From Loxodes magnus (lineage: Eukaryota > Ciliophora > Karyorelictea > Loxodida > Loxodidae): 64,000 nt of DNA. Made by a program: the position numbers and the translations under genes. The stretch spans positions 1-64,000 of the forward strand of contig CAMPDV010001933.1 in the NCBI GenBank assembly GCA_946699065.1. The letters run 5' to 3'. Positions 16,321 through 50,441 of this stretch are shown here, in pieces. Positions within the stretch are counted from its first letter, which is position 1. Every line of letters starts with the position of its first letter. The notes beneath the pieces are model-generated. The model made no database searches. It was given only the letters and a program-made list of their open reading frames with translations, and had not been told where the DNA came from.

Positions 16321-18390
16321 TATTCATTAAAAAAAGTAAACTCATAATTATGATATTATAGTTTAAACTATTGCTTATGCAGCTTTAGTTGGATCATTAT
16401 TAACCGCATTTTTTTAATTTACTTCTGTAAGTTTTATTCTGATGACTAAGCTCACGTTCAATCTATTATTTTTACTAAAAATTTCATTTTATTCAAGGCT
16501 TTTGCAAAAGTTAAAATAACAGAAATCAAAATGGTTAAATTATATGAACTTTTGAAATAAATTTTTATTAAATTAGAAATTAAATTACTATTAGTATTTT
16601 AATTAAACTTAATAGTTTTCAAAATTGTTTAAGCGGTATAAATTATAAATATATCAAAATTAAGTTAAAAAATTAACATAAAATAAGTATAAAATTAGAA
16701 TTTATTAATTATCTAAAATTATATAAAAAATGGAGACCAGATGGAAATTGACTGTGGACGTTTTTAACATTCTAGTAAGCGTAGGTGCGCAATTAATACT
16801 GAACACCAACACTGTTTGGAAGCTTTCAGCTTTGAGGACAAAATCATTCCATTCTGATCTCATCCTTTCTAGCCTTTCTTGAGGAGAGGTAAGCATTTTT
16901 TAATTGGTATCGTAGAGAGAAACAAGAAATTAAACCATTTTGTAGATTGAATAAAGTCGAAAGAAGAGCCTAATTCAATTTTAATTAATTTAATTTAATT
17001 TAATTTGAAATATTCTTAAAAAAATAAATTATAAGTTTAAAAAGAAGTAAAAATACAAAAGGCTAAAACTTTAAAAAAATTAAAGAAATTAAAAAATCTA
17101 GTAGATATTATAAAAATTAAGTTGAAATTATTATCGTCATCTTAAGTTAATTTTAATAATAGAAATAAGTGAGTGAAACATGTTAGATCATTATAAAAAT
17201 TTCATATTTAATCTTAAATTAAAATTTTGAAATTTCAATACTCTTTTACATAATATTTATGTAATTATTATTATTTTATGATTTAAAAATATTAAGTATA
17301 CTAATTATATTAGCATAATAATATATGTCTAATTAAAAAAAATGTTGTTAACATTTTAACAGAAATTTAGCAACTTAAATTTTTTAATTTTGTTTAATTA
17401 ATCATAAATATCCAAATCATAAGAAAAACCAAAGTAAGTAAAAAATTTATATGCAGTATTAATAAAATAAATAGAATATTGTATAAAATTTTATTTATTA
17501 AGGAGGTAATTTCTTAATCACTTATATAAAAAATAATTTATTTATTTGCAAAAATAAATTCTAAGGCTTTCTCTGGTTTACATATAAATATAAGGACTTA
17601 TTTAAGATATTTAGGTTTACACGTTAGATTTGTATTTTTTTAATAATAATTTAATCTCAAAAAGTTAACTTTAATAGAATAATTTAGTATAATATCAAAA
17701 ATGCTATAATTAAATATTGAAAAAAAGGGGAATGTACAAGCAGTTAAATTCAAGTAATTATTTTGGTTATTGTACCCTTTAATTGGTGTAAGAGGTAGTG
17801 TGCTTTCTTAACTATTTTGGAAATATGAGATTTAGATAAGGAGGTTTGGAGTCTAATATTTCGCAATATTTACAATGGATTGCAGATTCGATGATGACTT
17901 GGCATTATCTACATTTTAGGCGTAGAAAAGATCAATTCTCAAGTATAGATTCTAGTGAGGTTATTATATGTTGTATTTAAGGCTTTCTTAATTCCGAAAT
18001 TGGGTTCTTAAGCAAAATTAAAGTTTATATAAATTTTTTATCTATTATTAGCTTTAATAGACACTTTATTCTATAAATATTAAGCTAGAATGCTGGATTT
18101 CAGATTTTTTAATGACTAAAAACAAAAAACATTTAAATTATAAAAAAGTTATAATTTTTGCTCCTTTCAATTATAAACATTTTAGTTTTATTATTTTCCA
18201 TTTTTCATTCGTAATTTTTTAGCATAATTTGCTTATTTTTACTTCAGTTAAAACAGTTATTTCATTTATGACTACAAAAAAAGTTTAACAAACTTTCTTC
18301 AAGATTTTTAAATTTAGCATAACTACCACACTAAAATCTTCAAAATAAGAAAGAAAATTATAGAGAATTGTTTAATTATATAATATAATT

Positions 18391-18676
18391 GAAAAGATGG
18401 TGGGAGCTGAGATTGACCTTCTTGACTAAACTTTCTGGCTAGGAAAAAGTTCATGTCTTGTCGCTGAGAAAGTCTTTGGTCAGAGTCATTTTCTCAAGGA
18501 TACGCTGTCTTCTAGATTATCCGCTCTTGGTATGGGCTTGAAGCCTGGCTGCTCATAGCGATGGATTTTCCTTGCTGCTGTGCCTGGAGCATAACAGGAT
18601 ATCCCCGTTATTCCATAAAAAGAGAGCGTCGGGTCGTGCAATCGGAAAGGAGTTTCCGGTCCAAAAACTTTTTTAG
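18391..18676 (+). repeat. Dispersed 280-bp GC-rich repeat R1 (copy 1)
   Basis: R1 runs from AAGATGGTGGGAGCTGAG to GTTTCCGGTCCAAAAACTTT and occurs six times (also 23405-23697, 26331-26627, 40236-40526, 50148-50441 and 63061-63345). Shared internal blocks are TCAGAGTCATTTTCT, GATTATCCGCTCTTGG, GAAGCCTGGCTGCTCATAGC and AGCATAACAGGATATCCCCG. Base composition is near 48% G+C against about 20% around it. It carries no tail, box A/B pair or obvious terminal inverted repeat, so its class is unknown. Confidence 0.85.
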
Positions 18677-19190
18677 TTGAAATTAATTAATTAACTTCTT
18701 GCGATGAACTTTAACTTTTTTTTAATCTTTCTCCTTTTAATTCTCCGCCTTTTCTTTATGTTTCTAAGTAAATTCTTTGAGAGGAGAATATATTAATCTA
18801 TATTTAAGGATCAAATTGATATTTTAATTAAAAAAAGCAAATATTTGTTGGAGTATTATTGACTAAAAAGTTAAATTAAATAATGTAAATAGAATATTTT
18901 AAAAGAAATAATATACTTATAATAGAATCATATAATAAGACTAATATTTATTTTAAAGCTTTTCTATCTATTCGTAATAAAGCTCTGGGGTAAAACAGTA
19001 TATAATTCTAGGAATAATTTATTTTTATTGATCTTTTATAATAAAGAAAACTGAAAAAACTAAAAGGAAATTAGTTTAAATGTTTAAAATAAGAATAGAT
19101 AAATATTTAAAAGATCAGTATTTAATTTAATATAAGATTATTGAATCCATTTTTTTTATACTTAACAAACTCAAAATAAAACAGTAATCT
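18677..19190. other. AT-rich spacer
   Basis: No supported feature seen. Confidence 0.4.
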
Positions 19191-19194
19191 TAAT

Positions 19195-19706
19195 TATTTT
19201 AAGAAATTATAGAAACTATCCTAGCATTTTTAAATTGATTATGTGGATGTTAAAGAAAGCAAATAATTCCTACGATTAGTTTAAAATAAAATTAGACAAA
19301 AATTTTATTAAGATTCAATAAGAAGAATGAACTTAATGCCTACAGAATGCTTATTTTTAGATGAAATTGACAATAACACCTCATAATTTCCAATTTACAC
19401 TTACTCTAATCTTAACAAACATATGGTAAGAGAAATTTTATCGATTTATAAGCTTAGAACATTTTCCTATAACTTCTAATATGATTTGCTGTAAAGGTAT
19501 TATAACATTTAAAGCTCTAAAACATTTTCTTGCGGAGACCTTGATACTTTTAAACCTATTCCAGTATGTGAGGTCTTGAAAGAGTTAATTGAAGAATTTA
19601 AAGACTTAAAAAATTATGATTTATTTAAGCTCTTAACCTAAAACCAAAAATATTTAAATGAAAATTTTACGAGTATTCAGTAGCTCAAGAAAATTGACCT
19701 TAGAAG
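19195..19706 (+). pseudogene. Gene fragment interrupted by a retroelement
   Basis: One frame reads continuously as non-random protein: QIDYVDVKESKQFLRLVQNK (from about 19219), then MNLMPTECLFLDEIDNN (19328-), HMVREILSIYKLRTF, CGDLDTFKPIPVCEVLKELI and DLFKLLTQNQKYL. It contains no TGA. It stops abruptly at about 19706, where minus-strand R4 sequence begins, and no continuation was recognised beyond 19965. The family was not recognised. Acidic and hydrophobic residues are well above what random AT-rich DNA gives, so a real exon is likely. Confidence 0.55.
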
Positions 19707-19965
19707 CTGTTCCATGCTCATCTGGCCAGAAGGATTGAACTTTGAGACCTCCTGGTGCAGAGCAAATTTCATCTGCTTTCTGGGCTTCTCTTCTGAGGTT
19801 GGAGTTATCTCATCTGTTGTCTTCTGAGCTTGTTTCTGTTCCTCTTCAGGTTGTTAGAATTAAGAAAAAGGTTAGGGTTAAGGGTAAGAAGACTATCCAA
19901 GATTGGATTCAGGTTTCCTCTCCAACTTTTTGGAGGTGGTGTAGAAACCTCTTTTGAATCCTTCC
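19707..19965 (-). mobile_element. R4 retroelement 5' fragment
   Basis: Closely matches the 5' part of the element at 36845-37815, including CCAGATGAGCATGGA and GGTTTCTA(C/T)ACCACCTC. It contains the R4 start MSMEQLL and then ends at 19706. The retained piece is the 5' end, unlike usual 5'-truncated LINE copies, so later deletion or recombination is likely. Confidence 0.65.
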
Positions 19966-20636
19966 ATTTTTTTTATTTTTTAAATGTAACTTTATTTATA
20001 CATTTTTTATTATAATTTTATGTGAAATTTTACTACTTTGAGGTTTTTTCATATTATTTGAATCAAATTAAATTTAAAATTTTTGCATATTTTAAAGGAT
20101 TTTCATATTTTTTTAAATCATTTTTTTGATTTTTTTAGTGCTTAATGTTTTTTTATTAATAATTAAACTCAAAAACATCATTTTTTTTTAATTTATAAAA
20201 GAAAAATAAATAAAAAAATAAATTTTTATAAGTTTAAAACTTTTGCTTTTCCTTTAAATTCTTTATAAAAAACCTAATTTAAATATTAAAACATTAATTT
20301 TTAATTTCCTTATATATTCTTTTTAATATTTTATTTTAATACAGTTAAAAGCATTCTTTTTCCTAATTTTTAAAACCTTAATTTGTATTTATTTGTTAAG
20401 ATAAAATCCTAAATAAAAAGATGGAAGATTTAAATTTTTTATTTTTAATAATTAATTCTCTTAACCAAAACGAAATAAAAATAAAAAATTTAACAAAAAA
20501 CTTTCAAAAATATTTAAGAAAATTAGTTATAAAAAAATTATAAAAAAGTTATTAAATTAATTTTAAAAATAATAATGAGAATAAATTTTTCAAATTAATT
20601 AATTAAGAATTAATTTAAATCATTGCATACAGTTTT
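19966..20636. other. AT-rich spacer
   Basis: No supported feature seen. Confidence 0.4.
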
Positions 20637-20640
20637 CTAT

Positions 20641-21324
20641 AATGAAATATATCTAAGAGGATAAAATGGAAAACTTCTTGTAAAAAACCTCTTCTCAAAA
20701 GGATTCATCTTACGAGCAATAAAATATATTTTAGCACTCCAATTGCTGTAATAAGAAAATTTCAACCTCCTAAGAACAGTTCAAGCACTAGAAAGAAAAA
20801 TAGAGCACCTGATGTACAATTAATAAAAATAAATGAAAAATGAAAATAAATAGACAGGAAACAACAAAATAGAAGAGCTAGAGAAAAAATTCGACTAATT
20901 CGCAGAACTAACTGAAAGCATATTTTTGCAAAATATACAGGGGAATGATCCTATGGATGTGGAGAAACAGCCTGCAATAAAAGATATTCCCTATAGGAAA
21001 ATATTGCGATGCTGATACTGCAAGAGACCAGGACACAAAGTTAGAAACTGCTTCTAATTCCAATAAAAACAGAAAGCAGAAAATTTAAAGCTATGAAGAA
21101 CCATAAGTAAACTATATTGCACTGCGGAAGGAAGAATTTATAGAAGAAAGATGTACGCAGGGCATGAAATTCTAGAAGACGTGATTATAGCAGGACAAAG
21201 AAGAAATGAACAAATGCTTGGAATGAAGATTGATTGAAGCAAGATTATGAAAATAAAAAAGGGAGAACACGGCACAGATAGATATGTGCTTCAAGAAGAA
21301 GACCCAGAAGAAGACTGGAAATGA
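20641..21324 (+). CDS. Retroelement ORF1 with CCHC knuckle (copy A)
   Basis: One frame stays open through 228 codons when TAR=Gln and TGA=Trp. A helical N-part (VQALERKIEHLMYN, KIEELEKKFDQFAEL) is followed by NDPMDVEKQ, then the knuckle RC-TGA-YCKRPGHKVRNC (21007-), then GRIYRRKMYAGHEILED and an acidic C-terminus EEDPEEDWK-TGA. Internal TGAs lie at the knuckle (21013-21015), at KL-TGA-RTISK and at KID-TGA-SK. NDPMDVE, the knuckle and GRIYRRK recur as SDPMEIE, CYVCNKQHQWKYC and GKIYRKK in the minus-strand ORF at 34 kb, so these are homologous ORF1 proteins. The element ends at about 21412 in (ATT)n. The true start is unknown; the copy may be 5'-truncated. Confidence 0.75.
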
Positions 21325-21387
21325 AAATTTTAACAAAACTATTAAACTTTAAAAAGTGACGAACCTTATTGATAGGTGGGATCACTA

Positions 21388-21412
21388 TAATTAATTATTA
21401 TTATTATTATTA
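21388..21412 (+). repeat. (TTA)n tail of the CCHC ORF1 element
   Basis: A run of TTA repeats directly follows GATAGGTGGGATCACTATAA. It matches the tail position and unit seen after the R4 elements at 25.7 and 36.85 kb. Confidence 0.7.
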
Positions 21413-22309
21413 TGAAAATTTTTATCATCTTTATAAAAATATCTAAAAACTATTAAATTTATAAAGAACATAAAAATTTATTCTTTAAAAATAAAAAAAA
21501 ATACAAATTTTAGTAAAATAATCAATAAATTTTTTATTTTAAAAAGTTTTAAGTAAAAAATAATTCATTAAATTAATCTTTGATTTTATTGTTTTTAAAG
21601 AATAAATTTTAAATCCATTTATTTAAATAAAAAATAAAATTTTTTTATTTTATTATTTGAAAAAAATTCCTAGTTCTAAATAAAACTTTCTAAAAATTTT
21701 GTTTTAAGTAGTGTAAAATATTTATATATTGCATTAAAATTAAAAAATAATAAATTTTGACTTAAAAAATTTAAAATTATTTTTATTTTTGTTTCTGTTT
21801 TTGGAAAAATATATTAACTTATTATTTATTTTTTATTAACTTTGTAAATTTAATCATCTAGATATGAGATAATTTAGTTCTTTATCCCGTTTTAAAATGA
21901 GCAAACGTTCTTCTTTCAAATTTTCCTTAATTTTAAAAATTTTAATTAAATATATTTTATACAAATTTCCTAATTTTTAATTCATATATTATAAAAAAAA
22001 ATTGATATTTTCAATGTTTTTTTAATTATTGATTGTTATTTATAATTAGCTAATTAGTACATATTTACAATTTATCTTTGATACTTATAAGAAAATCCTT
22101 CTGTATTATTAGAAAAAATGTCAACAAGTGTTAGTTAGATTATGTTTATTTTATACATATATTATACTGTAATTTGTTTAATTTTATTTCTCTTATTAAA
22201 AATAAATTCTAAAATTTATTTTTCTGAAATAGATAAAAACCATAAAAATATCTAATTTTCAAATCCCTAAACCTCTAAAGGAATTTCAAAAATTTATAAA
22301 CAAAAGATT

Positions 22310-22930
22310 ATGAAAAAGCAGAAAAAATAACTAAAACAATTTGTTAAGCTGTGCTTAACTTAAAGGAAGATATTAAAAAACAATAAACTAAAACCTATAA
22401 TTTTAGGAGGATATTTAGAACGCTTAAGACAGTTTAAACAATCAAGTTAAGTAAAATTAAGTTTTCTTTAAAATTTAAATGACTATTCTGCTAGATTTAG
22501 CAAATAAAAATTATCATAAGAATGTAATTATGTAGAATATTCATAAAAAAAATCTAAGTAACGTACTGAAGCAAATGAAGTGTTTAATAAAATCTAAATA
22601 GTTAAAAGGGAGCTTTAGAAGAAAAGGAAAAGAGAAGTTCCTGATCATAATGTTAAGAAAAATTCTTATAAAGTTTAAAATAATTAAATTTTTCTAGTAA
22701 TTATTCAGGAAGGTCATGTATCTGTTATTAAGCAAGGAAAAAACCTGAATCATTGTAAAGCAAAAGGGCAAGAATATACAAAAAAATCAAGAAGAAACCT
22801 ATAGAGAAAAGTTCTAAGAAATTTTAGATTTTTGAGATTCAGAACTTATTAAAAACCCCTTTTAAACATTTCTATTAATCCATTTGGTTTCATACTTTTG
22901 GGTAGTTCGGAGAGCTATAAAAGTATCTGA
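22310..22930 (+). CDS. Hypothetical basic protein, 206 aa
   Basis: ATG 22310 to TGA 22928-22930 is exactly in frame with no internal TGA. The protein starts MKKQKKQLKQFVKLCLTQRK, continues KPIILGGYLERLRQFKQSSQ, has an Arg/Lys-rich middle (KRELQKKRKREVPDHNV), then the hydrophobic strand IFLVIIQEGHVSVIKQG, and ends NISINPFGFILLGSSESYKS. Composition is far from random. Many Gln are TAA/TAG. The family was not recognised; the basic middle could bind nucleic acid, but that is a guess. It matters as a frame whose only TGA is the terminal one. Confidence 0.6.
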
Positions 22931-23404
22931 AAAGAGCAAATTATTTTGTCTATAATAGAATTTCTCTTATTTTTTAATTTAATTTTAAAATTTAAAATTA
23001 TTAAAATAAAATAAAATATTTTATTAAAATCAAACTCAAAATATTTAAAATATTATTTTATCATAATTATTATTATTTAAAAGATTATAACTTTTAGTTC
23101 TAAAGAAAAATGAAATTAGATTATTATATTATTTATTCTTATCTTAGTTTAAGTTAATAAATTAAATTATAAAATTTTATTCTTACAATATGATTAACTA
23201 ATGACTAAATTAAATTCATAAACGTTTAAATTTTTTTTAATTTATATCATAAAAGTTTATTAAATTTAAATTTTTAGAAATTTGTATATTTAAGTTTATT
23301 ATTTATGTTTTTTTACTTTTTCTTTCTTATTTAAAAAAATTGTTACATACTCTTTTTTTATTTTTTTATTATACTACCAATTTGCAAAATTTAATTAATT
23401 TCAA
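22931..23404. other. AT-rich spacer
   Basis: Nothing recognised. Confidence 0.4.
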
Positions 23405-23697
23405 CTAAAAAAGTTTTTGGACCGGAAACTCCTTTCCGATTGCACGACCCGACGCTCTCTTTTTATGGAATAACGGGGATATCCTGTTATGCTCCAGGCA
23501 CAGCAGCAAGGAAAATCCATCGCTATGAGCAGCCAGGCTTCAAGCCCCTACCAAGAGCGGATAATCTCAAAGACAGCGTTCCCTTCAGAAAATGACTCTG
23601 ACCAGGGACTTTCTCAGCGACAGGAAAGGAACTTGTTCCTAGTCATAAAACCAGAAAGTTTAATCACGAAGGTCATTCTCAGCTCCCACCATCTTTT
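23405..23697 (-). repeat. R1 repeat (copy 2)
   Basis: Inverted relative to copy 1, 5 kb away and almost identical over the CCGGAAACTCC..CAGGATAT half. The two copies bracket 18.7-23.4 kb. Confidence 0.85.
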
Positions 23698-24950
23698 CAA
23701 TTATATTTGCAAAATTTAATTTTTATATTTTCAATTAAAAAAAAATTTAAGCCATAATTAGGAAAAAATTTCTTTAAAGTTACCTCATTATTGCTTTTTT
23801 TAAAGATTTATAATAACTAAAGCAAGATATATTAGTGAAGATACATCAAAATCAGTATTTTCTAAATTGCTAGAATGTGTTAAAACATTAAGCACTTTTA
23901 TTTGAATACAAACAAGTCACAATTTCATAAAAGATATAAAAATAAGAAAAATTGGAATAAAAATGTATTTATTTATCTGAGAATATATACAGAGAAATTT
24001 TGCTTATACATTTTATATTTTAAATATAAATTAATTGAGGATTAAATATACATTTATAAATTAAAAAAAAATTTAATTCTGAACTTATTTAAAATAAAAT
24101 ATTTTTAGTCAATAAATTCTTTTGACTTCCAATAATTATATTGAAATTAAAAATTTACTAAGATAATTACAAGAAAAATAAAAATGTTGTTTAGATCTAA
24201 AAGAGTTTAATATAATGATAAAAATATTAGGTGGCTAGTCAATGAATAAAGAAATCAAGTAAACTAGAGTCAAATTAATGGATGTCAACATTATTAAATA
24301 TTAAAACTAAATAATTAAAAACGCTTTTCTTTTATTTTTCACGCTGAAATATTTATAATTGTAATTTTATTTCTACTACTTTAAACCTTATTTTAGCGAA
24401 AAATAAATTATAAATAAAAAATTTAAATTATAAAAATGTAAATATAAGCAAATATAAAATTTAAAAATATTGAAATAATATGCATTTCAATAATTGATTA
24501 AAAGCTTATAAATATATTATAAATAACTGTTAAAAGCATATAGTTGAAAATTATTTAAATATAGTCTCTTTAGATTTAAAATATTTATTTAAAATAGTAT
24601 TAAGTTAATTAAATAGTGTACTATAATCAAAATATTTAAAAATATTAAGTTAAACTTGCTTCCAAATTTATTTTATAAATTTTTAAAGCAAGCAAAACAA
24701 ATATAATGCTTATTAACAAATTAATAATAGTTTATTTAATAAATGTCTTAGTAATATTATTATTATTTTTTAAATATTTTTTTGATGACTTACTTTCTGA
24801 AAAAAATGATAGTAAACTTCAAGAAATGCCTTTTTATAAACACGATGTCTTAAAAAATCAACTACAATAATTTATAAATTTGGGAAAGAAAAAGAAGTTA
24901 CCCTTGAAATTCGGCTGAGAAGTCAATAAAGCAATAGGGAATAGGTAGGC
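23698..24950. other. AT-rich spacer
   Basis: About 1.2 kb with no recognised feature. Confidence 0.4.
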
Positions 24951-24959
24951 ACAGGTGGT

Positions 24960-25712
24960 ACGAGAATCGAACTTTGGAGGGAGTAAGTGAAAATTGCTCA
25001 ACATATGTTGATTATTGTCAATCTTCAGGAAATTGTATGCTCAAGATTTTTAATAAAAAACTCATTCTGATACTGGAGTAATAATTTGAATAAAATGGAT
25101 AGAGGCTGATGACCTAAGGAAGATAAATGGATAAATTTTGAACCATCTAATATGACTAGAGTAAATACCTAATTAGAAGAGCAAGATTAAAATCTGGAAA
25201 ACTTAAAACTCTTTAATATAAGACAGTAAGAACGAAAGTTAGCTGCTGACAAAATGGAAATAGAGCAAAAATAATTCTTGGCCATCAATAAAAAGTAACT
25301 AAACCAACTAAGTAAAATTCTATTGCTGAAGAAGTCACTATCACCTTTACAACAATTACAAAAAATTTAAACAGAGATAAAGAATTTATTGAAACAAATA
25401 TTACTGAAAAAAGAACAAGAAAGAAAAAAAGCATGATTTCTGTAAAAGAAAAAACTTAAATAAATGAACTGAATAGTCTGCATGCAAGCTGGAACATTAC
25501 ACAAGAGAAAAAAATCAATCGTAAGAAAGGAGGAGGCAGTGAAGCAAGAAGGATGTGGAAAGAAAACCTGAAGAAATTAGTACACCCTGTTTCGAAAATA
25601 TATATCAAAAATTTAATATTAAACAGCAAGATACATAAACTACTGCTATCCAGATGGAGTTGAAATCTCGTAATAAAGGAAAATATTAATTGCTATTATT
25701 ATTATTATTATT
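24960..25712 (+). pseudogene. ORF1-like retroelement protein (family R4, copy 2)
   Basis: The opening AQHMLIIVNLQEIVCSRF aligns with the coiled-coil start of the R4 copies at 3.1 and 37.5 kb. From ATG 25095 the frame reads MDRG-TGA-TGA-PKEDKWINFEP, NMTRVNTQLEEQDQNLENLK, RKLAADKMEIEQKQF and a Lys-rich tail to about 25590. It stays open without frameshift when TGA is sense. The 3' end (AACAGCAAGATACATAAACT..GAGTTGAAATC) matches the ends of the other R4 copies and is followed by (ATT)n to 25712. The function is probably nucleic-acid-binding ORF1, inferred from the coiled coil and context. Confidence 0.65.
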
Positions 25713-26330
25713 ATAAATAACATTTTATTTTCAAGCAAAATAATCGAAACTTAGAATTATATTTTTTCCTATCTTTAAATTTGTCTATTTATAATATTTT
25801 TGAAAATTAATTAAAAAAATATTTCAATAACATTAAAAAATATGAGTTTATATATAAAAGTTAGATTAAAAATTGATATCTTCAGAGATATTTCGACCTC
25901 TTTCCCACCTACCTCTAGAGTTATCCAGTTGTTTAATAAAATTTAATGATTTAAAAAATTGTTATTAATCTTTGTATTATTCTTTTATAATCTCTGCTTT
26001 TATCTTCAGTTTAGTCTTTTTACCCTAAGATTATTTTAGTATATTATTTATAATTTTCTTGCTATTTCTTTACATTCTTTCAGTATTATTTCTTAAATAT
26101 TAATTGTATCTTATTACTTTTTTTACATTTAAAATTTTTCGCTAGAAACTTTTAAATCTTTTGCAGAGATACTTCTATGAATTGCGAAAGAATTTTTACT
26201 ATCTAAGTTTTATGCTTTCGATCTTTATATCCTCTACTTGCACTTTGTAATTTATTTAATTTTTTCTTTCAATTTAGTATAAAATTTATTGTACTTTTAT
26301 ATTATATAATATTTTCCATCCTAAATAATT
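25713..26330. other. AT-rich spacer
   Basis: No supported feature seen. Confidence 0.35.
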
Positions 26331-26627
26331 GAAAAGATGGTGGGAGCTGAGAATGACCTTCGTGATTAAACTTTCTGGTTTTATGACTTGGAACAAGTTC
26401 CTTTCCTGTCGCTGAGAAAGTCCCTGGTCAGAGTCATTTTCTGAAGGGAACGCTGTCTTTGAGATTATCCGCTCTTGGTAGGGGCTTGAAGCCTGGCTGC
26501 TCATAGCGATGGAGCTCCCTAGCAGCTGTGCCTGGAGCATAACAGGATATCCCCGTTATTCCATAAAAAGAGAGCGTTGGGTCGTGCAATCGGAAAGGAG
26601 TTTCCGGTCCAAAAACTTTTTTAGTTG
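26331..26627 (+). repeat. R1 repeat (copy 3)
   Basis: Near-identical to copy 2 over most of its length, in opposite orientation. The shared distinctive block is TTTCTGAAGGGAACGCTGTC. Confidence 0.85.
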
Positions 26628-26925
26628 AAATGAATAAAAAAAATCTTAATTATTCTTAATTTTCTTATTTTAATAATTATAACTTTAAAGATAATTTGAG
26701 AATATAATATTTTAACGTTTGCTACATATTTATTATTCTAGTATTAGTTGGAATTAATTATAAACATTTAAAGCTTTTATTGGTTAAATATGATTTAATA
26801 TTAGAATTGATTGTATATATGGGATATATTAATAATAAATAGAATTATAAATAGGTTAATGGCTAAATAAAGTATTTATTTTATAATTAAGTTATTTTAT
26901 AAAGCATTTACAACTATTTTATATT

Positions 26926-29199
26926 ATGTAATCAACTAAAATGTAAGTAGTATGCCATTATTGCAACTAGTAAGTATTCCATAATCAACTTTAATATATC
27001 AAATTACCCTGCTCCAATATTTTGTGCTCTATGTGCAAAAAATTCCAAAATATTTAATCTAATTAATTTACTTGCTAGAAATGTAATTAAGTTCACTGGT
27101 TAGATTAAGAAATTCAATCTATATAATAAAAGAAAATAAAGGATAAAATTTAATTATAGCAGCTTTAAGAGGAGGAAAAGTAGGAAACACTAGAATAAAT
27201 AATAGAAACAGAAAGAAATAAGCTATAAGTAAAGGAAGCATTCTAATAGCTTTGGTGTAATAAATATTTATAAGACTTGGTTTTCTAATTTTTAGATTTA
27301 AGAGAAATATGTGCTTTATAGTAAGTCAACAAGCATTTCTACCGTTTTTACTACTAGCTAAAAAAAATAGAAATAATGAAGATATATGATGATGCTTGTC
27401 TTACTAAAAATAAAATAGAATGAAGTCTAAAATAACTTGCACATAATAATATAAAAAGTGTTTAAATAGATGGTAATGACTTATCTATAAGAGCATGTTA
27501 AGAGATTAAGACAAAACTAGATGAAATTGCTTGAATAAAGTAATAAAATAAACCGAGCAACTGCTTAATTAATATACAGGAAATGTAAATGTAAAATTGA
27601 CCTAAGTAAAATGTTTCTCTTCCTGATTTTTAGAACTTTAGATCTTTAAAATAATTATCCTTGCTTTTTATAAGTTTAAAAGACTAAGAATTAATCTTCT
27701 TACAAAAATTAATTAATTTAGAATAATTAAAACTATGCTAAGCTTCTGGAATAACTGGAGCTTTTTTAGTAAATTATTGCTTAAGTATAGATTTAAAAAT
27801 ATTACGAATTGATAGTAAATAGTTAAATTCAGAGTAAGTGAAGATTTACTTAAAATGGAAAGGATTTTTACTTTAGGAAATACTAATTAATTGAAATTAA
27901 GATATTGACTAGTTTTTATATTTTTGTCCTAATTTGAAAAGACTTAACTTCAATTGAAAATAAAACTTAGATGACTAAATTTTAGGAAAATATAGATGAG
28001 ATAACATAGAAGAGATGTAAGTTCGACTTTAAAATATCCAGCAATTAAATAAGTTTCTAATGCTTTAGTTCGCTTAGTTAAAAGTTTTAGAAATAATAGG
28101 TTTACAATATTTTAACGATAGTGATTTCTGTACGTTAATCTAACAAATTTCTAACTTAAAATATCTTAAATGAATCAAAATTAATGTATTTTAGATAAGC
28201 ATAGAATAATAGTAAAATGCTTTAACTTAATTAAGGGAATAAAGACAAATTGAAACTATTTCACCTAATTTGAACAATACAAATTTAGAAATAATAACCT
28301 TATATAATTGCTCCTAACTTAGAATAGAAAACTTGTGACTTTTACTAATAAAATCCTAATAAATATAAGAATTTAATTTCTTTTAAAATAGTTTATTATC
28401 ACAAATTTAGAACCAAACATCGAAAGTTTGAGAATAAAATTTTGAAGATACAAATGCATTTAAATAAGTGAAATTTTAATAATTTATAAAGCTTTAATCT
28501 ATAACTATTGATAACTGCTAGTGATTCAAAGATTTAGTTTTATAATTATTAATAGAAAATTCTCCTAATTTAGAGCAATTAAATTTAAGAAAATTGTAAT
28601 AAATAAAGGACCCAACTATTAAAGAAATAGGAATTTACAGTTAACATATTAAAAAAATAGAGTTGTAAAGTGTGAATTAAATTACTGAAGAAACTTTATG
28701 CTTTTTATTTTAAAATTGGAATACATTAAGAGAAATTTTCCTTTCAAATATTTCAAATATAAAAACTTAAATGCTTTAGCTAGTAAACAATTAAGTTAAG
28801 AGCTTATCTCTTGTTGACTGTTCTTTTTAAAGGCAAAATTGAATATAAGAAATAGCAAATTTATAATCATTAGTATATCTAAATCTTCAAAATTGCAACA
28901 TTTGCAACAAAGATTTGGTTTGAATCATTAGGAATTTTAAAAATATAGAAAATTTGAATTTGAGTAATAATTAATCTTTGTCGTTTGATGGATTTCTGCT
29001 GAAAGACGAAAAAGGTATATTTTATCCGTTCTGAACAAAATTAAGATTCTTGGATATAAATGATTGCGCTTTATTGAAAGTAGAATTGGCTATTTTTTTA
29101 AAAGGTTTATTTAAGAAGATTAAAATAAAAATAAGCGACCAGAATTTAGCAAGATTTTATGGAAATTTAGATTTTGAGTTAAAATTTAAGTCACTTTGA
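26926..29199 (+). CDS. Zinc-finger / leucine-rich-repeat protein (F-box/LRR-like), 757 aa
   Basis: ATG 26926 to TGA 29197-29199 is 758 codons in one frame. The N-terminus holds a Cys/His cluster VVCHYCNQQ..LPCSNILCSMCKKF..TCQKCNQVH, a zinc-binding module. Near residues 105-135 is an F-box-like hydrophobic stretch (LQDLVFQFLDLREICALQQV). From about residue 240 onward come degenerate LRRs: NLEQLKLCQA, NLKRLNFN, NLKYLK, NLEIITLYNCSQL, LQSITIDNCQ, NLEQLNLRKLQQI, HIKKIELQSVNQI, SLVYLNLQNCNI, NIENLNLSNN. Inside the frame are 14 TGA codons at Trp-compatible sites and 4 TGG, with no frameshift. Such proteins usually recruit substrates to ubiquitin ligases; that role is inferred. TAAs follow the TGA 6 and 18 nt downstream; the exact stop is not proven. 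Confidence 0.85.
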
Positions 29200-29876
29200 A
29201 AAACTTAATTCATTTGTTAAAAAAAATTATTTATAAAATAATCTTGAAATTAATCATAAAAAAAGTAAAAATTAGAATTTTTTGATTACTTTAAGCGAAA
29301 TTACTCATAAAAATTTAACATGCTTTTTTATATTAAATTATTTCCTTTAAAAAATACATTGTAATAAAATTTTGAGATTTAAATTAATTAACATTATAAA
29401 TATTACAATTTGAAATTAATTAATAATACGATTATTCGTTTTAACCTATTTATATTAATTTTTTTATTTTTTATCAAATTCATTTTTATCTATTTATGTT
29501 TTTTTAAGTTTTAAAAATCAAATAAAAAATTATAATTATTCAAGTTATAAAAAAAATTGGTGTTATTTAATTATAATCTCTTTATTTTTCAAAGCAAAAT
29601 AGTTGAATCAAATATTTTAAATTATAAATTAATAATTAAATTTTTAGTCATAAAATTTCAATTAATACTTTTAGTTTAATTTGAAAAAATAAGTTTTTAA
29701 TTAACTAAAAGAAATAAAATATATTATCTTTATTAGAAAAATAGTTGTTAATTATTTTTACAGTTTATGCTTTTATAAATATTATTTAAATTTAGTTTAT
29801 TTTTTCTCTTAACAATTTTAAAATTTCCTTCTTTTCATTTAAAATTTATTAATTTTTTAAATTAATCTTTTTTAGA
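29200..29876. other. AT-rich intergenic spacer
   Basis: No features beyond A/T tracts. Confidence 0.45.
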
Positions 29877-31008
29877 ATGAATAAGATAATAAGTCAATAT
29901 TTAATAGAATGGTATGAACAAAATTATGAAAATTTGATTTTGATTCTAAACTTTTGGGTTCAAAATCTTAAAGGGAACGCAACGGGACAATTTCCAATTT
30001 TGCAGATTCTTGAATTCTATGTTTATGAAGAAGGCATTAATTACTCATAGCGATCAACGACAGCTGTAAGCGATCATCAATATATCTATTAAGAGACTTT
30101 TCTAAGTAGTTGCTCGACAAGAGTTGCGCTTTTCCAATACACCCCTCGGAAATATTTAATCAATAAGATATTAATCCATATAAGAAGCATCAAATATAAA
30201 ATATAAAATATAAGAAGAAGCACTGTTAATTTATCTCTTTTTTCAGTAAAAATTTAAGCTATTATAAATTTTAAAATTTAGTTCTTAACTAAAAAGGTTC
30301 GAATTTTAATTTACCATAATCTTCTTTTTTAACTTTGGAAAAGAAAATAACATGATACCTATGAAATTATTTTAGAATTAGAATTTAAACCAAATTGAGA
30401 AATTATTAATTGCTTGAAGCGATTCGTAATAAAAATAATTTTTTAATATATTTAATCTAATAAAATAATAGGCAAATTTTAACAATTAATGAAAATTTAT
30501 TTACCTTATCAAAAATCTTGCCATGTAATTTAGACGAAATAGAAATTTATAAATGATTGCAGGAAAAGATTAATAAGCTTATAAAGTAGATATCAGTTGA
30601 TAAAAATTAGAATAATGTAGCTATTAATGAATAAAAAATAATAAATCATTTTAAAATTGCGTTTTTAACTAGAACTTTATAAACTTTTTAAAAATTAATA
30701 GTTAGTAATTATTAGATTAATACATTTTTTTGAACGAATAATAAGATTATGGCAAAATTTAATAATTAATAAATAAATATTAAGATTTTTAAGAGCAAAA
30801 AGAAGAAATCAAAATATTAAACATTCAAAAAAATTAAATAGATTTAGAATTTTATTGAAATTAAAAGGCTAAATAATGTTAATTGAAATAAAAAAATAAG
30901 CATAGATAAAAGAAATAAATCAGTTTAAAATATTAAGTAAATAAAAGAAAAAATTTAGAAAATTTAAGACTAAAAAAAATAACTAAAGCTTATAAAATAT
31001 TATATATA
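29877..31008 (+). CDS. Hypothetical gene, multi-exon, 3' end cut by a SINE
   Basis: Exon-like part 1 starts at ATG 29877: MNKIISQYLIEWYEQNYENL, then NFWVQNLKGNATGQFPILQI, YSQRSTTAVSDHQYIYQETF and ALFQYTPRKYL, all non-random. Part 2 starts near 30352 (MIPMKLFQNQNLNQIEKLLI, AWSDS). It joins cleanly to part 3 (QILTINENLFTLSKILPC, DEIEIYKWLQEKINKLIKQ, then a Lys-rich helical tail to about 31000) if a 46-nt GT-AG intron is removed. Frame changes between the parts fit short introns. At 31009 an R2 SINE begins. The join from part 1 to part 2 was not resolved, so two genes remain possible. The family was not recognised. Confidence 0.5.
30426..30471 (+). other. Candidate 46-nt intron
   Basis: Begins GTAATAAAAATAATTT and ends AATAATAG. 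Splicing joins GATTC to GCAAATTTT and keeps the non-random reading SDSQILTINEN. Supported by frame continuity only. Confidence 0.45.
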
Positions 31009-31412
31009 AGATGGATGTCGGCTGCGTCAAAAAAACTAGTAGGTAATCTGGTGCAGTGTATACTGCATTGCGAGTAATCTCGAACTAGATGCCACCACGG
31101 GGAAGGGTGGATAAGATCCGTTGAGATATAACTAACTTACCCCGAGGGTTCTCTCAAGCAGTATGAAAGTTTGACTGGCGGGCCTTCTAATTACCGACTT
31201 AATAACTAATTCTTATTTGGACCTTATTCAAGAAGACTGAAGAATTTGACTCAAGATTTAAGAATAATTTTTAATAAGAAGATTCCCCATTTTGAGAATC
31301 TGACATGATTCTTAGAGACTCTAGAATTTTAACTAGAAACATGAGAACATTTCCTTAATATTAATATTGAAAGAGCTGCGCACCAATGAGGTGCTACGCG
31401 CTCTATAATCAT
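31009..31412 (+). repeat. SINE-like repeat R2 (copy 4, best preserved)
   Basis: Begins GATGGATGTCGGCTGCG, carries GTGCAGTGTATACTGCATTG, and ends with the intact hairpin GCTGCGCACCAATGAGGTGC plus TACGCGCTCTATAATC and a TTTAT-repeat tail (about 31411-31435). This is the most SINE-like arrangement: body, terminal hairpin, microsatellite tail. Confidence 0.82.
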
Positions 31413-33777
31413 TTTTATTTATTTATTTATTATTTGTTTTAACAGAAATAAATAATAAAATGTATTAAAATTTAGTTATTATAAAATAATAAACTCATAA
31501 AGAAAAGGTATAAATTTAGATTTATTGCAGTTAAAACAACGATTATTAATTAAGTTGGATTTAAAAATTTATAAAAGATAAAGTTTTTATCTGAACATTT
31601 AAATTTTAAAAATTAATAAGAAATGTTTTCAATATAAAACATAGCAACAATATTATTTCCTTTTCCATAAGGATTAACCGATTAGTTAAAATAAATTAAT
31701 TGATTATTTGGAGGCATTTAATTTGATTTCGAAATAATAAAAATAGTATTAGGATTAAATTAGCTAAAATTATAGATTTTTGTAATTTGTTTTCAATTTT
31801 AAACATAACTGATCGAAAAACATTTGAGCTTATATGTTAAAACATAATAATGAAATTTTACATTGGAATAACTTAAGTAATTATTAAAATAAGATTTTCA
31901 AAAATATGAAATTTATAAAAATAAAATGTTAGGAAGTAAAAATTTCTGAAAAGCGAAAAATATGGAACTATTGCAAAAGGAACTGCAACTTGATTGATTA
32001 CATTGACATATGCTAAATGATGCATTTTGATTTGAAAATATTTGTAGTTTAAATAAAATTTAATAAGAATTACAAAAATAAAGATTTGAATTAAATAATC
32101 CACATTTAGTAGTTATTTTAGTATAATTAATTTTAAACACCTTAATGGTTTGAAATAGATTGATTTAAATTTGAAGAATAGAATGCCAGAACATATTCAT
32201 TTATAAATTAAGCTTAGATAGACTAAATATGTTATTTAAGGAAAATTAGTTTAGAATAATTCGAAATAAATAAAAACATTTGAGTAAAGAAGAAAACAAA
32301 CATATTAAAAGAATTAATAAATAAAAGGTGAATAGCTAAATTAAAGCTATAAACATTATATTTGATTCTGAAGTACCAATTAAAACAAAAATCAGTAAAG
32401 TAGTAAAAAATAAATCTATAGATCAATTTAATAAAGCTTAAAATAGAGATTTATTTGATATTTTATAATTTGTGAAACATAAATGCAATGATAAACGTTT
32501 ATTAAGAAGAAAAATAAAAATGAAGAGTTCCATTCTAAAATAATAAAATAACTTAATTTAAATAAATACAAATAAAAACAATAGTAGCAAATATAATATA
32601 TATTTTTTAGCAAAAAGTAATTAAAAAATATATTACCTTTACTGTAATTTTGAAGAACTAATTGTTTATTTAATTTTATAAGAAAATTAAATAGAATAAT
32701 ATTTATTTAAGTTTAATAAAGAAAAAGAAGCATGACAATAGTTATTTACTAATATTTAGTTAACACTTGTAATTAACTAGAGTGAGTAAAAAGATTATAT
32801 TATTCCAGAAATAATGCGAAATTTAGATAAAAGAACTGGATGTTCTCACTAAACAATAAAATTAAATTGAGAAAACACAAAATAAATTAATTTAAAAAAA
32901 TTAAGAAAATACTTGAGATTTAACAATAATTAAACTGCAAATGATTATAATTAAATTGATATAATTCTTTAAATAAAACAATTATATTATGCTTAAAGAA
33001 TGTAATATATACCAACTTAATATTCTTAAAAATTTACAAGTTTAGAACAAATTACATGTTACGAGTTTAGGTCAAACTTTTAAATAAAAATTAGTATAAA
33101 GAAAAAAAATGTAGATAAAATAATAGTGTTACCTATACCATATATTTAAGAAAATAATAATGATTAACATACTAAAAGTTGAATAGCTTAAAGATATCTG
33201 TTAGCTTGAAAACTACAAGTTGATATGAAAATAATAATTTAACTAAAGAATAAAAAATATATGAAGCTAAATAGTAAGTAGTTGTAAAAATTTAAGTTCA
33301 ATTATCCATATCTATTTAAACATAATATTAAAATTTTGATTTGAAACTATTAAAATAAATAAATGAGTAAAAACATAATATGATTACGAAAAAATGTTTA
33401 AAAAATAAAATTTAAAAATAGAAAAAATTAATAATAAAAATTAACTAAAGTAGAAGACATAATAAATTATAAAAACTCATAATATATTTAAAAATGCATA
33501 TAATGTAAACTATTATTATCTGCTGGTACTGGAAAATATTTTTTAATTAAATAATTAGAATAATTTTTAATGAACTAATGTGCAACAACTGGTGAAGCTT
33601 CAAAAGCAATTGACGGAGTTACTGTATATTCTTTACTTAATCTAACTTGTAAATTTAAAGATTTAGCATAAAAAGTAATTAAGAAAAATAAAATTAATTA
33701 TAAAATATAAACTGAATAAGTATAGATGAAATAAGCAAGCTCAGTAATAATGATTTTAAATTGAAAAAAGACTATAA

Positions 33778-34655
33778 AAAGTTAAAGTTAAAGTTAAAAA
33801 GCTTTGTTATAGCCTTAGTAGTCAGCCATCTGACCTATTCTATCAGCTTGTCTCCATTAGTTTGTCTTGAATTTCTACTAGGCTTAGTTAGGCGGTGTAG
33901 CACTTCGTTAGCGCACCATCCTTTAATATTCTGAATAGTTTTCATCTTGCATGTAGCGTTCCTAATTATTTCTCCAAGGATTAAGATTTGAATTAAAGAA
34001 TTTTTTTCTATAAATTTTTCCGCTTTATGTTGGATATATCCTAAATAGTTTTCTAAAAATATCTTATTTATTCTTTCTTTAAATTTCGCTTAGTTAGTAG
34101 CAGTATTTTCATTGGTGTTATTTATTGCACACGTAGCATTTTATTCTTCTTTTAACCTATTATTCCTGTAACACTTATTTAATTTAAATTTACTACTTAT
34201 TTTAAATAAACGTTTACTGTTTATTTTAATTTGAGGCTTCATTTTCTATTTCCATAGGATCTGATTAATTCTGTTAAATCGAAAATGGCGTAACCTGAAT
34301 TTATTATTAAATTTAAATAATTCTTTGTTCCAGTTTGTTTTCTATTTCTTATGATGATTAATATTGTTTCTCAAGTAAAGACGTTATTAGTTTTTCTAAT
34401 TTTTCTACTTTATCAGTGAGGTATCTATTTTTAAACATAAACTCTTTTAATGACTTAGATAATATTTCTATTTGAGTTTGTGTCGGAAGTTTTTTTAATT
34501 CTGGATTTCCAAATGGTTAATGTTCGTCATATCAATCATATTTCTCACTTTCACTCATTGTAATTATTTCGCTTTTTTATTTTTTAGAGAATTTTCCTGT
34601 TTAAATGTTTTGTTCAAAGTTCTGTTATTTCTTAGAAGCCATTTTATTATATATA
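33778..34655 (-). mobile_element. Retroelement inserted into Helitron copy B
   Basis: Copy A lacks this 0.88-kb block at the equivalent site (about 7975-7995), so it is an insertion. On the minus strand it carries a complete ORF1, an internal form of the shared hairpin (GGTGCGCTAACGAAGTGCTACACC, 33893-33925) and a (CTTTAA)n tail at 33778-33797. Tail and structure point to target-primed insertion of a non-LTR element or derivative. Confidence 0.75.
33794..34558 (-). CDS. Retroelement ORF1: coiled coil plus CCHC knuckle, open
   Basis: The ATG is at the minus-strand complement of 34556-34558; the frame stays open for 254 codons to a TAA at the tail. It starts MSESEKYD-TGA-YDEHQPFG, then the helical segment IEILSKSLKEFMFKNRYLTD and KVEKLEKLITSLLEKQYQ, the conserved SDPMEIENE, and the knuckle CYVCNKQHQ-TGA-KYC (CX2CX3HX4C). 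GKIYRKKFF and an Arg/Gln-rich tail containing TPPNQAQ follow. TGG also occurs. With no frameshift it is probably a recent insertion. Whether TAA really ends translation is unclear because TAA is Gln elsewhere here. Confidence 0.8.
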
Positions 34656-35504
34656 ATAATAAAATGAAATATTGAGGCTTTAATATAATTTTTTATGAGT
34701 TTTTGCTCAGTTACAGTTAAGTAAATATTCTCAATAAAATTAAAAAAGCAAAGAGATATAGAAGGATTAATTTAAAATACTGTAGTATTTCTAGAATAAT
34801 AACTGCGATAATTAAATTTTATAACAAATCTTAACAAGAAATGGATAAAGAATTATATAACTATTTATAAGTTTTTAGCAAATACTTAGATTTTAAAATT
34901 AAACTTTGTTTTTTTAGAAAGAAAACATAATCTCATAATTTAAACATTTTATAAAGTTTAAATAAGCCTTGTATCGAAGATAAAGCCCAAGAATTATTAA
35001 AATATAAGGACTTTAAAAAATATTTAAAGTATTAATGCTTGAATTATGTTAACTGAAAATTTAATTACTAAATCTGGATTAATAAATAGAGCCATAGGTT
35101 TCAGAAGAGATATTTCTGATGGGATAAAGATTAGTTTTAACATTAATTAATGTCTATTAATTGAAAGGTAACTAAAATAATTAACTAAATTTAAAAAAGA
35201 ACAAATGTAATAATTTGGTACACATATTTTCTGTAAAACATAGCTTTACACTCGATGACATTTAGGATTATAGAAAATAATTTCCTTTAATATTATGCAT
35301 AAACTATTCATAAATTTTAAGGAACTACCATTGAAAAGTTTTATTGATATTGGAAATACAGTACAGGCTAAAAGCTTTTACAGAATTTACGTTTAAAAGA
35401 CTTTTAAACATAAAACGAAAAACTTTGATTAGAGAATTAAAATTAATTAAGAAATGAATATGTGAAATTAAAAAATAACTTTATAGAAATAATTCAATAA
35501 TTAA

Positions 35505-36840
35505 AAATTTAAGAATATTAAAACTTTCAAAATTGTCATTTTTTCTATAATTATGGAATACATAGTCTAATGATCAATTAGTAAAATAGGTAAGTTAATA
35601 TGAAAAAATACATTAACAAAATGAAGATGATTGCTTTTTAATAAAAAAAGAGTTAAAAAATTAACTAATAAATTTAGAAAAATATTAAAAAAAAGAAATA
35701 AAAGAAAAGAAGATCAAAAAGACTTTAACTAAAGCCAATAAAAATTAAGATAAAGTTTCTTAAAAAGTAATCCTAAAATTTGAGTATTGAATCTGAAACC
35801 GTATAAGAATAATGTTTTTAAAATAACAAATATTTAAAAAGATTAAAATCTAAATAAAAAAGAATATCAAGATGTTAATAAAAATTATGAAAGACATCTG
35901 AATAATATAATAAAATAAAGAAAAAAATAAACTAACAATAATAATAGTAACTAGAAAGTCCAGAAAATTAATTTATAAGATTTTATAATCCAATATCTTG
36001 ATGTTGATTAAATTAGATTATCGTAATTCTATACAAATTAGATAAATTCAAAGCTAATTCTTATATTATTGAAATATAAATTAGTCAGAAATTTTTAAAT
36101 ATAGAATGCTTTAAATTAGAAAATGTAAAAGAGTGATTCTTATTTAAATAATGAATATGTGATAATTGCTAAGCGTTTAAAAAAATAATAAGATTAATAA
36201 GAAGCAATTTTTTATATCTTTAAATAATTAAGTTTGTCTTTTGAAGAGACGATAAACTTATTTTTAAAATATTAAAATATTAAAATATTTAGTAAATGAT
36301 ATTTAGTAAATGCTAGAAATAATAATTAATATAATTAAGATTGTGAAAATTATAAAAAAGAAATAAATAGTCCTATGATTGATTTGCATTACTTTAAATA
36401 CTACTTAATAATGTAACTAAAGCTAAAATATTATATATTCTTCTTATTTTTTACATTTACCAACAATAGAGTATATTTGCGAAAAGAATATACATGAAAT
36501 AACTTTAAAAAATTTAATCGATTTTGAATAATAAACTTAGAGTTTGAAGAGTGATTAAAATTGAAAATGTGATAATTTAAAGCATAACTAATAAATTAAT
36601 AAGGTCAAGCAACAAAATTATTATAAGTAGTATATATTATAATAGCTATTTATAGAACAAAATAAATAGAGTAAAATTAATCAAAAATTTAAAACCAAAT
36701 TCATAATATAATTAATTTCTTGATTTTACAAACTTAATATAACGAGATTAAAGTTAAGTATCGATTTAACAAAATATATACAAACTGAAAGCAACAGTTT
36801 ATCATGAAGGCGAAACTTTAGAGCAGGACTATTCTTAAAT
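35505..36840 (+). other. Region with possible but unproven coding sequence
   Basis: A plus-strand frame from about 35555 gives stretches such as INLQDFIIQYLDVDQIRLSQ and KQQDQQEAIFYIFKQLSLSF, but the composition is dominated by K, N, I, L and Q as random AT-rich DNA would be. No motif was recognised. Confidence 0.2.
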
Positions 36841-36844
36841 TAAC

Positions 36845-37815
36845 GGTTAAAATAATAATAATATTAATTTTGAGTTTTCCCTTTTAGGGATTTCCAACCC
36901 CGTCAAGAGGACAGCAGTTCATGCTCAATGCTGTTAAATATAAATGTTTGGGACGTTCAATTTTAGCGAGATTGGGAACTCGGGTTTCTTCAGGTTTTCC
37001 TTCCTTTTACTTGACATGGTTTCGTCTTGATCTTGTATATTGAACCATCCGGGTTGCAATGCATTCTTTTTATTCTTGCTTCTTCTTTTTTCTTCTTTTG
37101 CTGTTCTTTTATCCAATAGTTTCTTTATTTCTATTAGAATTTCTAACACTTCCGATAAAAATGTCATACGCTTCCACAGCAGAAACATTTCTTTTTTATT
37201 TTGAATTATTTTCCTTGATTTGTTTGCTCTTTCTAGAATTCGATTTCCATTTGTATAGCTCCAGTTTCGCTTTACTCTTTCTTAAAAGTTTACAATTTCT
37301 CTTCTACTTTTCCGAGGCTGTTATCCAGTTCAGTCTGTTTCTAAAGCTAATTTTAGAATTCGTTAATCTGACTTTGTGAGATATTCCAAAAGGCGTTAAG
37401 TTCTCTTTTCTAGGACATAAGTCTTGACTCAATTCCTTCTGCTAGGTCTAGCTTTCAGCATATCATTGTCCTTCTTCAATCTCTTGACCTCTTCCTGGAG
37501 GTTCAGTACCACTTTGATGAGTTACTCCATGCTCATCTGGCCAGAAGGGTTTAACTCTGATACCTTTTGGTGGAGAACAGACTTCATCTGTTTTCTCGGT
37601 TTCTCGCTTGAGGTTGGGGTTTCCGTGTGTATATTCTTCAAGGTTGGCTTTCGTTCGTTTTGTTAGATTCCAGGTTGTTAGTTCAGTGTTGGTTAATGTT
37701 GTGATAAAGAAGATTGCTAAGATTATTAAGATTTGGTTTCTTGCTTCCTACATTCCTTTTTAGCTTAAGAAGAGGTGGTATAGAAACCTGACTTGAAACT
37801 TTCAACCATTTTTTT
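36845..37815 (-). pseudogene. ORF1-like retroelement (family R4, copy 3, longest)
   Basis: On the minus strand a 5' leader (from about 37815) precedes MSMEQLIKVVLNLQEEVKRL and KKDNDMLKARPS. After a short frame slip come LNAFWNISQSQINEFQNQLQ (with TGG at 37386-37388), a Lys-rich part, and an ORF at 37188-36934 beginning MFLLWKRMTFLSEVLEILIE. The 3' end is GAACTGCTGTCC..GGGGTTGGAAATCCC followed by (ATT)n at about 36848-36862. It provides the paralogue for reading the TGA at 3211. About 45% GC in parts of the leader. Confidence 0.7.
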
Positions 37816-37999
37816 TATTGAATGGTTAATTAATGTTTTATAAGTAAATACATTAAAAGTGTGATATTTTAAATTTGTATATATTAAAAGTAAAAATTCA
37901 AAATATCTTGCTAAAAAATATTTAGAATATTATATTATACCTGAAGTGATAACTTTGATAAAATAATTTTAACACGAAAAAGTTAAAGGAAAACAAATA

Positions 38000-38280
38000 T
38001 AGTGAAGTCTTAAAATAATGTCGCCAAAAAGCGTTTAAAAAAAATTAAAACTGTTAAACGCTTAGTTTAAAACACAAAGCCTTTTTAATCTTATATTATA
38101 TTTAATAAAGAAAATAAATTAAATAATTTTTTTTAAAACAATCTAAAAAAAGTAAGTTTTAAATTTTCGACAAAAGTAAAAAAAAAAGTAAAAAAAAATA
38201 AAAAAAAGTACATAGAAAAAAGTAAATCTTAAGTAATAGTCAAACCAAAAAAACAAAATATTATGTTTTAATTTAAAAAA
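38000..38280 (+). repeat. Partial third copy of the inverted-repeat outer end
   Basis: The sequence CTGTTAAACGCTTAGTTTAAAACACAAAGC and the following AAAAAGTA-rich stretch match the outer part of arm 2 (about 44610-44870) in the same orientation and arm 1 (about 14340-14640) inverted. It shows the arm end is itself a mobile or repeated unit. Confidence 0.55.
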
Positions 38281-38499
38281 ATTAAAAGAGATTAAAAATA
38301 ATATTAAATAACAATAGCCAAAATATTAAAATATTGAACAATCAAATTTTAAATAAAAATGGCAAAAAAAATGAAAAGATTTAATAAAAAAACATATAAA
38401 AAGATATTTAAAAATCTAGATAGAAAATTTGTAAAATTAGGAGCAAGCAATAAAAAGAAGAAAATTAAGTTAAAAAAATAATCTAAAAATGAATCACTT

Positions 38500-39280: not shown

Positions 39281-39685
39281 CTCTTGATTAGTTCTGTCTT
39301 AAAATACAAAGAATAAGAAATTCTTGTATATTATCACTTCAACACAACTTGTAATTTTATATAGTTGAGTTTTTAGAAATGAAACTTATTGTCGAATTAT
39401 TATAATTAATGATTATATATATCTCAATTTATGAGATCCCTAATCTTTTATCAATCAATTAAATTTCTAATTTTCTTCTTTGCAAATTTTTCATTAACAT
39501 TTCGTTAAACTCTCAAAAACGAATGAGTAATAATCTTTAATTAAGAGTCTTAGATTAGAACTATAAAAATTATTAATTTTATGCTTAATAGCTTTAGGAT
39601 TTTAGCCACGATTAATTTTACAAAGCAACAATTAACTTTAAAAATAATAGTTTTATTCAATAAAAAATATTATGATAATTTAAAA

Positions 39686-50147: not shown

Positions 50148-50441
50148 ACTTAAAGAGTTTTTGGACTGAAACTTCTTGCGGTTTAACGACCCCAACACTC
50201 CCTTTATGGGATAACGGGGATATCCTGTTGCTTTCGAAAAGCAGTTGCCAGGGAGCTCCATCGCTATGGGCAGCCAGGCTTCAAGCCCCTACCAGGAGTG
50301 GATAATCAAGAGGAAGGCGTTCCCTTGCAAAGGTTGATTTTGACCAAAGACTTTCTCAGCGACAGGAAAGGAACTTGTTCCTAGCCATAAAACCAGAAAG
50401 TATGATTCAGAAGGTCAATCTCAGCTCCCACCATCTTTTTA
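50148..50441 (-). repeat. R1 repeat (copy 5)
   Basis: A more diverged copy (GTTTTTGGACTGAAACTTC at one end, CTCCCACCATCTTTTT at the other). It shares TTCGAAAAGCAG and CAAAGGTTGA variants with the copy at 63 kb, defining a subfamily. Confidence 0.82.

Follow-up and report, generated by a model that had tools for sequence, protein, structure and literature searches.

Organization of the window

The DNA analysed here (hereafter the window) consists of bases 1–64000 of contig C1933, which belongs to an assembly of 705,730,643 bases in 7843 contigs. This size agrees with that of the published MAC assembly of Loxodes magnus, which is described as a 706 Mbp assembly rich in interspersed and tandem repeats (PMC11441545), although agreement in size is not in itself proof of identity. 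The window is most likely nuclear DNA of this karyorelict ciliate. It carries two protein-coding genes of interest, the first of them inside a repeated segment lying between the arms of a long inverted repeat:

1260–1332: tRNA-Ala(AGC), with no other tRNA detected in the window
14372–18692: left arm of the long inverted repeat, aligned in two stretches (89% to 41206–44906, 78% to 40228–40947)
18691–40049: body of a dispersed repeated segment carrying the LRR gene, with pieces 89–97% identical, with gaps, on contigs C79, C140, C785 and C928
26926–29199, + strand: F-box/LRR-like gene copy of 758 codons, with 13 internal TGA and a terminal TGA, 82 TAA/TAG and 4 TGG
26953–27084 (about aa 10–53), + strand: Cys/His-rich, zinc-module-like N-terminal stretch, seen by eye
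27277–27348, + strand: F-box-like stretch, weak Pfam match below cut-offs
27643–29130, + strand: LRR repeats in one frame throughout, from Pfam PF24758 and the repeat layout, limits set by eye
29197–29199, + strand: TGA taken as the real stop of the LRR gene, with no TAA or TGA just upstream and a low G+C after it
40228–44906: right arm of the long inverted repeat, aligned to 14372–18692
57651–59945, + strand: second gene, with a RING-like N-terminus and a pentapeptide-like stretch (both by eye) and WD40 repeats, TAA/TAG read as Gln
59643–59645, + strand: codon 665 of the second gene, an in-frame TGA at a WD-motif Trp (SIRI-TGA-NINTG), TGA in 7 of the 7 genes read
18385–18690, 23390–23704, 26325–26639, 40230–40532, 50123–50446 and 63073–63312: copies of a short G+C-richer repeat in both orientations
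60975–62521 and 63561–64000: 21-bp and 91-bp satellite arrays

The repeated segment was compared with the four other contigs listed. Pfam gave no match at E ≤ 0.01, to a transposase or to any other family, in the six frames of 14372–18700, 18690–23400 and 29200–33780 or in five frames of 34652–40049, 23400–26925 and 33780–34652 being covered in pieces only. The Pfam-searched frames therefore do not display the transposase between terminal inverted repeats that would define a DNA transposon, in agreement with the passages of PMC11441545 that deal with DNA transposons in Loxodes, where no compelling ones are reported. On ten gene-like pieces of the window, Pfam returned nothing beyond weak matches, under its cut-off, to a zinc knuckle and a DUF. 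A Pif1-like helicase suspected by eye at 7830–8842 and 33522–33902 was discarded, as Pfam gave it no support. The short G+C-richer repeat measures roughly 240–330 bp, occurs in both orientations with copies 70–97% identical, and is SINE-like in size; Rfam gave no match at its copies. The 91-bp satellite fills the last 1500 bases of contig C1933, and no telomere was seen at this end.

The F-box/LRR-like gene

The initial annotation described 26926–29199 as a frame of 758 codons with 14 TGA and 4 TGG codons, no frameshift and many TAA/TAG, and this description is accurate. Indeed, the region is a single open frame containing 64 TAA, 18 TAG, 14 TGA (13 internal ones and the last codon) and 4 TGG, and some 19 LRR units are recognisable in it by eye. 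As TGA accounts for 1.8% of the codons of the frame and for 1.54% of all triplets of the window, its share is near the base-composition background and the TGA count by itself proves nothing. The non-chance feature is that the LRR frame runs across the TGAs, not that they are numerous.

The domains announced for this protein, a Cys/His zinc module and LRRs, fared unequally. The LRRs are matched by PF24758 (aa 516–678, E 6.9e-6), just below cut-off (26.3 bits for a cut-off of 27), whereas the zinc module is visible by eye alone, no zinc domain being matched by Pfam in the translation. Two F-box-like matches were obtained, at aa 119–141 (E 0.0064, 16.7 bits for a cut-off of 24.3) and aa 118–140 (E 0.032). 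Since the F-box and LRR scores are both under the Pfam cut-offs, the gene is named "F-box/LRR-like" only. A BLASTP search with the protein gave one weak match, to an FBXL13-like protein of the sponge Corticium, whose best stretch displays 34% identity over 90 positions. The window gene resembles such F-box/LRR (FBXL) proteins in having an F-box-like stretch and then LRR units, but differs from them by its N-terminal Cys/His module, its very high Gln content and its Pfam scores under the cut-offs.

Ahead of the TGA taken as the stop, 74 codons are devoid of TAA (P 0.0015) and 54 are devoid of TGA (P 0.39). The G+C content just downstream is 9.8%.

Decay and constraint among the copies of the LRR gene

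When the assembly was searched with the LRR gene, 59 of 3265 candidates were scored, yielding 75 matches that were merged by hand into at least 53 loci on 50 contigs, some of these loci being perhaps duplicate haplotypes. Thirty-eight copies were read, and 34 distinct ones were kept after four near-duplicates had been dropped. These copies were drawn from a protein-score ranking, in which copies with few non-synonymous changes come out ahead, and the sample is therefore biased towards intactness. The copies read are 96–99% identical in DNA. Only three of the 34 (those of the window, C79 and C785) are free of frame-breaking indels; each of the other 31 carries 2–9 of them. The argument of the initial annotation that an intact gene without frameshifts speaks for sense TGA codons is thus weak.

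The window copy might nevertheless be a still working host gene in a large functional family, rather than the survivor of a mostly dead set; this is rather unlikely, and the evidence pulls in both directions. In all ten copies compared, divergence is lower in the gene (1.9–4.4%) than in its 3' flank (3.0–7.6%), and the gene carries fewer indels per base, low-ranked copies included. Changes found in two or more copies (139 non-synonymous, 67 synonymous) give an N/S of 0.74 of neutral (p 0.026), and the three frame-intact copies (L001–L003) have pairwise N/S of 18/15, 20/15 and 12/8, for a neutral ratio of 2.8. All this would fit a working gene, but the 31 broken copies would not, nor would the changes confined to a single copy (275 non-synonymous, 105 synonymous, N/S 0.93 of neutral in the 34 copies) or those found in three or more copies (0.90, p 0.36), and the protein-score ranking would itself lower the non-synonymous counts. 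A smaller count on 28 copies gave N/S of 0.98 (single copy) and 0.76 (two or more copies) of neutral. Short 5' stretches give a mixed picture, as the divergence of some of them does not exceed that of the gene (1.7% for a gene at 2.1% in L002, for example). As the gene is less diverged and poorer in indels than its 3' flank, "neutral" is not the whole story, and the lower divergence may reflect constraint that is past or only partial.

Codons at the TGA columns of the LRR gene

At the 13 internal TGA columns, TGA is found in 338 of the 364 cells of the first 28 copies. The 26 other cells comprise TTA (8), TAA (4), CGA (3), AGA (2), TAG (2), AAA (1) and gaps (6). The TGA columns being common to most of the 28 copies, these codons are old in the family, and random decay of a single gene is ruled out as their origin. 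The initial annotation expected TGA columns to be enriched in Trp or other aromatic residues, and on this the LRR gene is equivocal: TGG is absent from the 20 ungapped non-TGA codons at the 13 columns, and in the best stretch aligned with the sponge FBXL protein V and T stand opposite two of the TGA residues and a gap opposite another. By eye, the TGA residues occupy a mixture of buried and exposed positions of the LRRs. Furthermore, three of the four TGG codons of the window copy are minority states among the 28 copies: codon 110 is TGG in 3 and TGA in 25, codon 311 is TGG in 3 and TAG in 24, and codon 598 is TGG in 1 and TGC in 20, codon 58 alone being TGG in all 28. Owing to the lack of TGG at the 13 internal columns, the LRR gene does not by itself establish TGA as a Trp codon, or indeed identify the residue encoded; it is weak evidence on its own.

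The WD40 gene and its family

The second gene ends, tentatively, at the TGA at 59943–59945. This end is uncertain, and the codon immediately upstream of the supposed stop is TAA, contrary to the published depletion of UAA there. Both window genes are thus taken to end at TGA, with this reservation for the WD40 gene.

The WD40 family comprises at least 59 scored loci including that of the window, 56 of them nearly full length; they are mostly 65–72% identical in protein and each contains 1–6 in-frame TGA. The window gene was aligned globally with six paralogues (L060–L065), picked mainly for their high TGA counts. At codon 582, TGA is found in L062, TGG in five genes and TAC in the window gene; at codon 716, TGA is found in L064 and TGG in the six other genes. 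The aromatic position of 38 WD motifs from the seven genes is TGG in 23, TGA in 8 and TAC in 7, the motif pattern admitting W, Y and F with TGA read as W. A separate cut into 39 WD repeats places Trp at position 32 in 26 of them (22 TGG, 4 TGA). When L060, whose repeat region is disturbed, is left out, TGG is the codon most commonly facing TGA (10 of 52), followed by TAT (9). Residues facing TAA are Gln in 138 cases, the next being Glu in 35, with L060, one of the seven genes, partly misaligned there. Many TGAs of the family lie at hypervariable columns, 518, 559 and 600 among them, that lack TGG and have codons for Tyr, Leu, Ser, Arg or Gln opposite the TGA; these TGAs do not by themselves favour Trp.

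Codons 1–427 of the WD40 genes have an N/S of 0.17–0.28 of neutral in all six copies and are therefore under purifying selection. Within the WD repeats, positions 6, 7, 9, 25 and 27 are hypervariable and most others are conserved. In 28 repeats, N:S is 631:57 (neutral 3.55) at the hypervariable columns, a ratio inflated because the columns were chosen for their variability and the pairs are not independent, compared with 987:2138 (neutral 2.86) elsewhere.

The genetic code

The Loxodes code is published as NCBI table 27, in which UAA and UAG encode Gln and UGA is both a Trp codon and the sole stop (PMC11441545). The tRNA-Trp(CCA) of Loxodes is described as having a 4-bp anticodon stem (PMC13092985). 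The window and its WD family agree with table 27, as known in Loxodes and Parduczia: TAA faces mostly Gln in the WD family, internal TGA stands for Trp at the aromatic position of the WD motifs, at codons 582 and 716 and at repeat position 32, both genes are taken to end at TGA, and no difference was found in the features tested here. In the Condylostoma code (NCBI table 28), TGA can likewise be Trp or stop, and TAA and TAG can stop as well, depending on context; in contrast, the two window genes need no TAA or TAG stop. At the scale of the assembly, 136 of 5592 kinase-domain (Pkinase) candidates were scored, and in-frame TGA occurs in 91 of these 136 matches, with a total of 157 such codons. 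The counts were read through all six frames and would thus include any TGA lying in a short intron. An eRF1 domain was located at three places in the assembly, and a motif search in the best of them found nothing.

The kinase matches bear directly on a reading in which TGA would serve strictly as a stop, the LRR frame being a pseudogene of a Tetrahymena-like ciliate. Such a reading would account for a TGA frequency near background in the frame and for the broken state of most copies read. It is nevertheless contradicted by the in-frame TGAs of the kinase domains and by those at WD-motif Trp positions of constrained genes, and the age of the TGA columns of the LRR family also speaks against it, leaving it extremely improbable. 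Scarcely less improbable is a different residue at TGA, whether Cys, Arg, Gln or Leu. By eye, several LRR TGAs do lie at positions able to hold Cys or Leu, and TTA, TAA, CGA and AGA stand opposite TGA in the LRR copies, as do TAT, TCT, TTA and CGA in the WD family; but TGG predominates at the WD-motif aromatic position and is the codon most often facing TGA in that family, which points to Trp, also the published assignment (PMC11441545).

The evidence therefore supports a karyorelict-type code in which TAA and TAG encode Gln and internal TGA encodes Trp. The Trp reading is carried by the WD40 family, the genome-wide kinase matches and the published code, not by the LRR gene. The initial annotation had proposed that all three stops are reassigned. 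This stands insofar as TAA and TAG are read as Gln and TGA, inside genes, as Trp, with the qualification that table 27 keeps TGA as its sole stop. TGA as a sense codon in the source of the window is likewise supported, yet this code was already published for Loxodes. The annotation thus read a known code correctly, starting from an LRR copy that belongs to a repeated and mostly decayed segment.

Taken together, the open frame, the copy number, the decay and the TGAs at WD-motif Trp positions very probably have a single explanation: the window would be nuclear DNA, most likely of L. magnus, read with TAA/TAG as Gln and with TGA as Trp inside genes and as stop near the transcript end, and the LRR frame would be a frame-intact copy in a repeated segment. 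The source LRR gene would already have carried most of these TGA codons and been translated through them. Most copies would then have decayed near-neutrally, the window copy being young enough, or partly constrained enough, to have stayed open.

Linkage of the LRR and WD40 genes and a possible recognition family

A member of the WD40 family is present on 23 of the 50 LRR contigs. In 20 of 27 LRR–WD40 pairs, the two genes share a strand and the WD40 gene lies 28–47 kb downstream of the LRR gene, the seven other pairs differing. This linkage persists though the LRR copies are 96–99% identical in DNA and most WD40 copies only about 65–72% identical in protein. At 12 of the 22 WD40 loci on contigs of known length, the distance from the gene to a contig end is no more than 20 kb; as contig C1933 ends in the 91-bp satellite and not in a telomere, "subtelomeric" is a guess.

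Several known families resemble parts of this arrangement. In Tetrahymena, young LRR gene families have multiplied, near centromeres and chromosome ends and beside LINE-like elements, and WD40 is also listed among the expanded domains (PMC6564038). The LRR genes described there have 90-bp exons and introns in a ciliate where TGA is a stop (PMC6564038), whereas the window gene is one intronless-looking frame in a repeated segment. The fungal HNWD families (het-e, het-d), as far as they are described in the sources consulted, share with the WD40 family many paralogues, near-identical WD repeats and few hypervariable positions. The window gene, unlike them, comes from a ciliate and has, by eye, a RING-like N-terminus, and no NACHT or HET domain is among the Pfam matches listed (25 of 41 families). 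None of the titles listed by the literature searches names a hypervariable WD40 family in Loxodes.

It is conceivable, although doubtful, that the window shows part of a large, perhaps subtelomeric, repeated system of Loxodes. Its segments would combine inverted arms of about 4 kb, an F-box/LRR-like gene and a RING/WD40 gene located 28–47 kb further downstream on that strand. The RING/WD40 family, which numbers at least 59 loci and has WD repeats hypervariable at few positions, where Trp is often written TGA, could be a family of recognition receptors diversifying like fungal HNWD.

Globally, a rare published code in which TGA is both sense and stop is recoverable from raw sequence. For the annotation of Loxodes genomes, TGA-rich open frames can be decaying repeat copies, and tests of the code therefore need diverged, constrained genes. 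The WD40 family is a more interesting lead than the LRR gene, and, linked as it is to the latter, it would matter more if it were a real recognition family.
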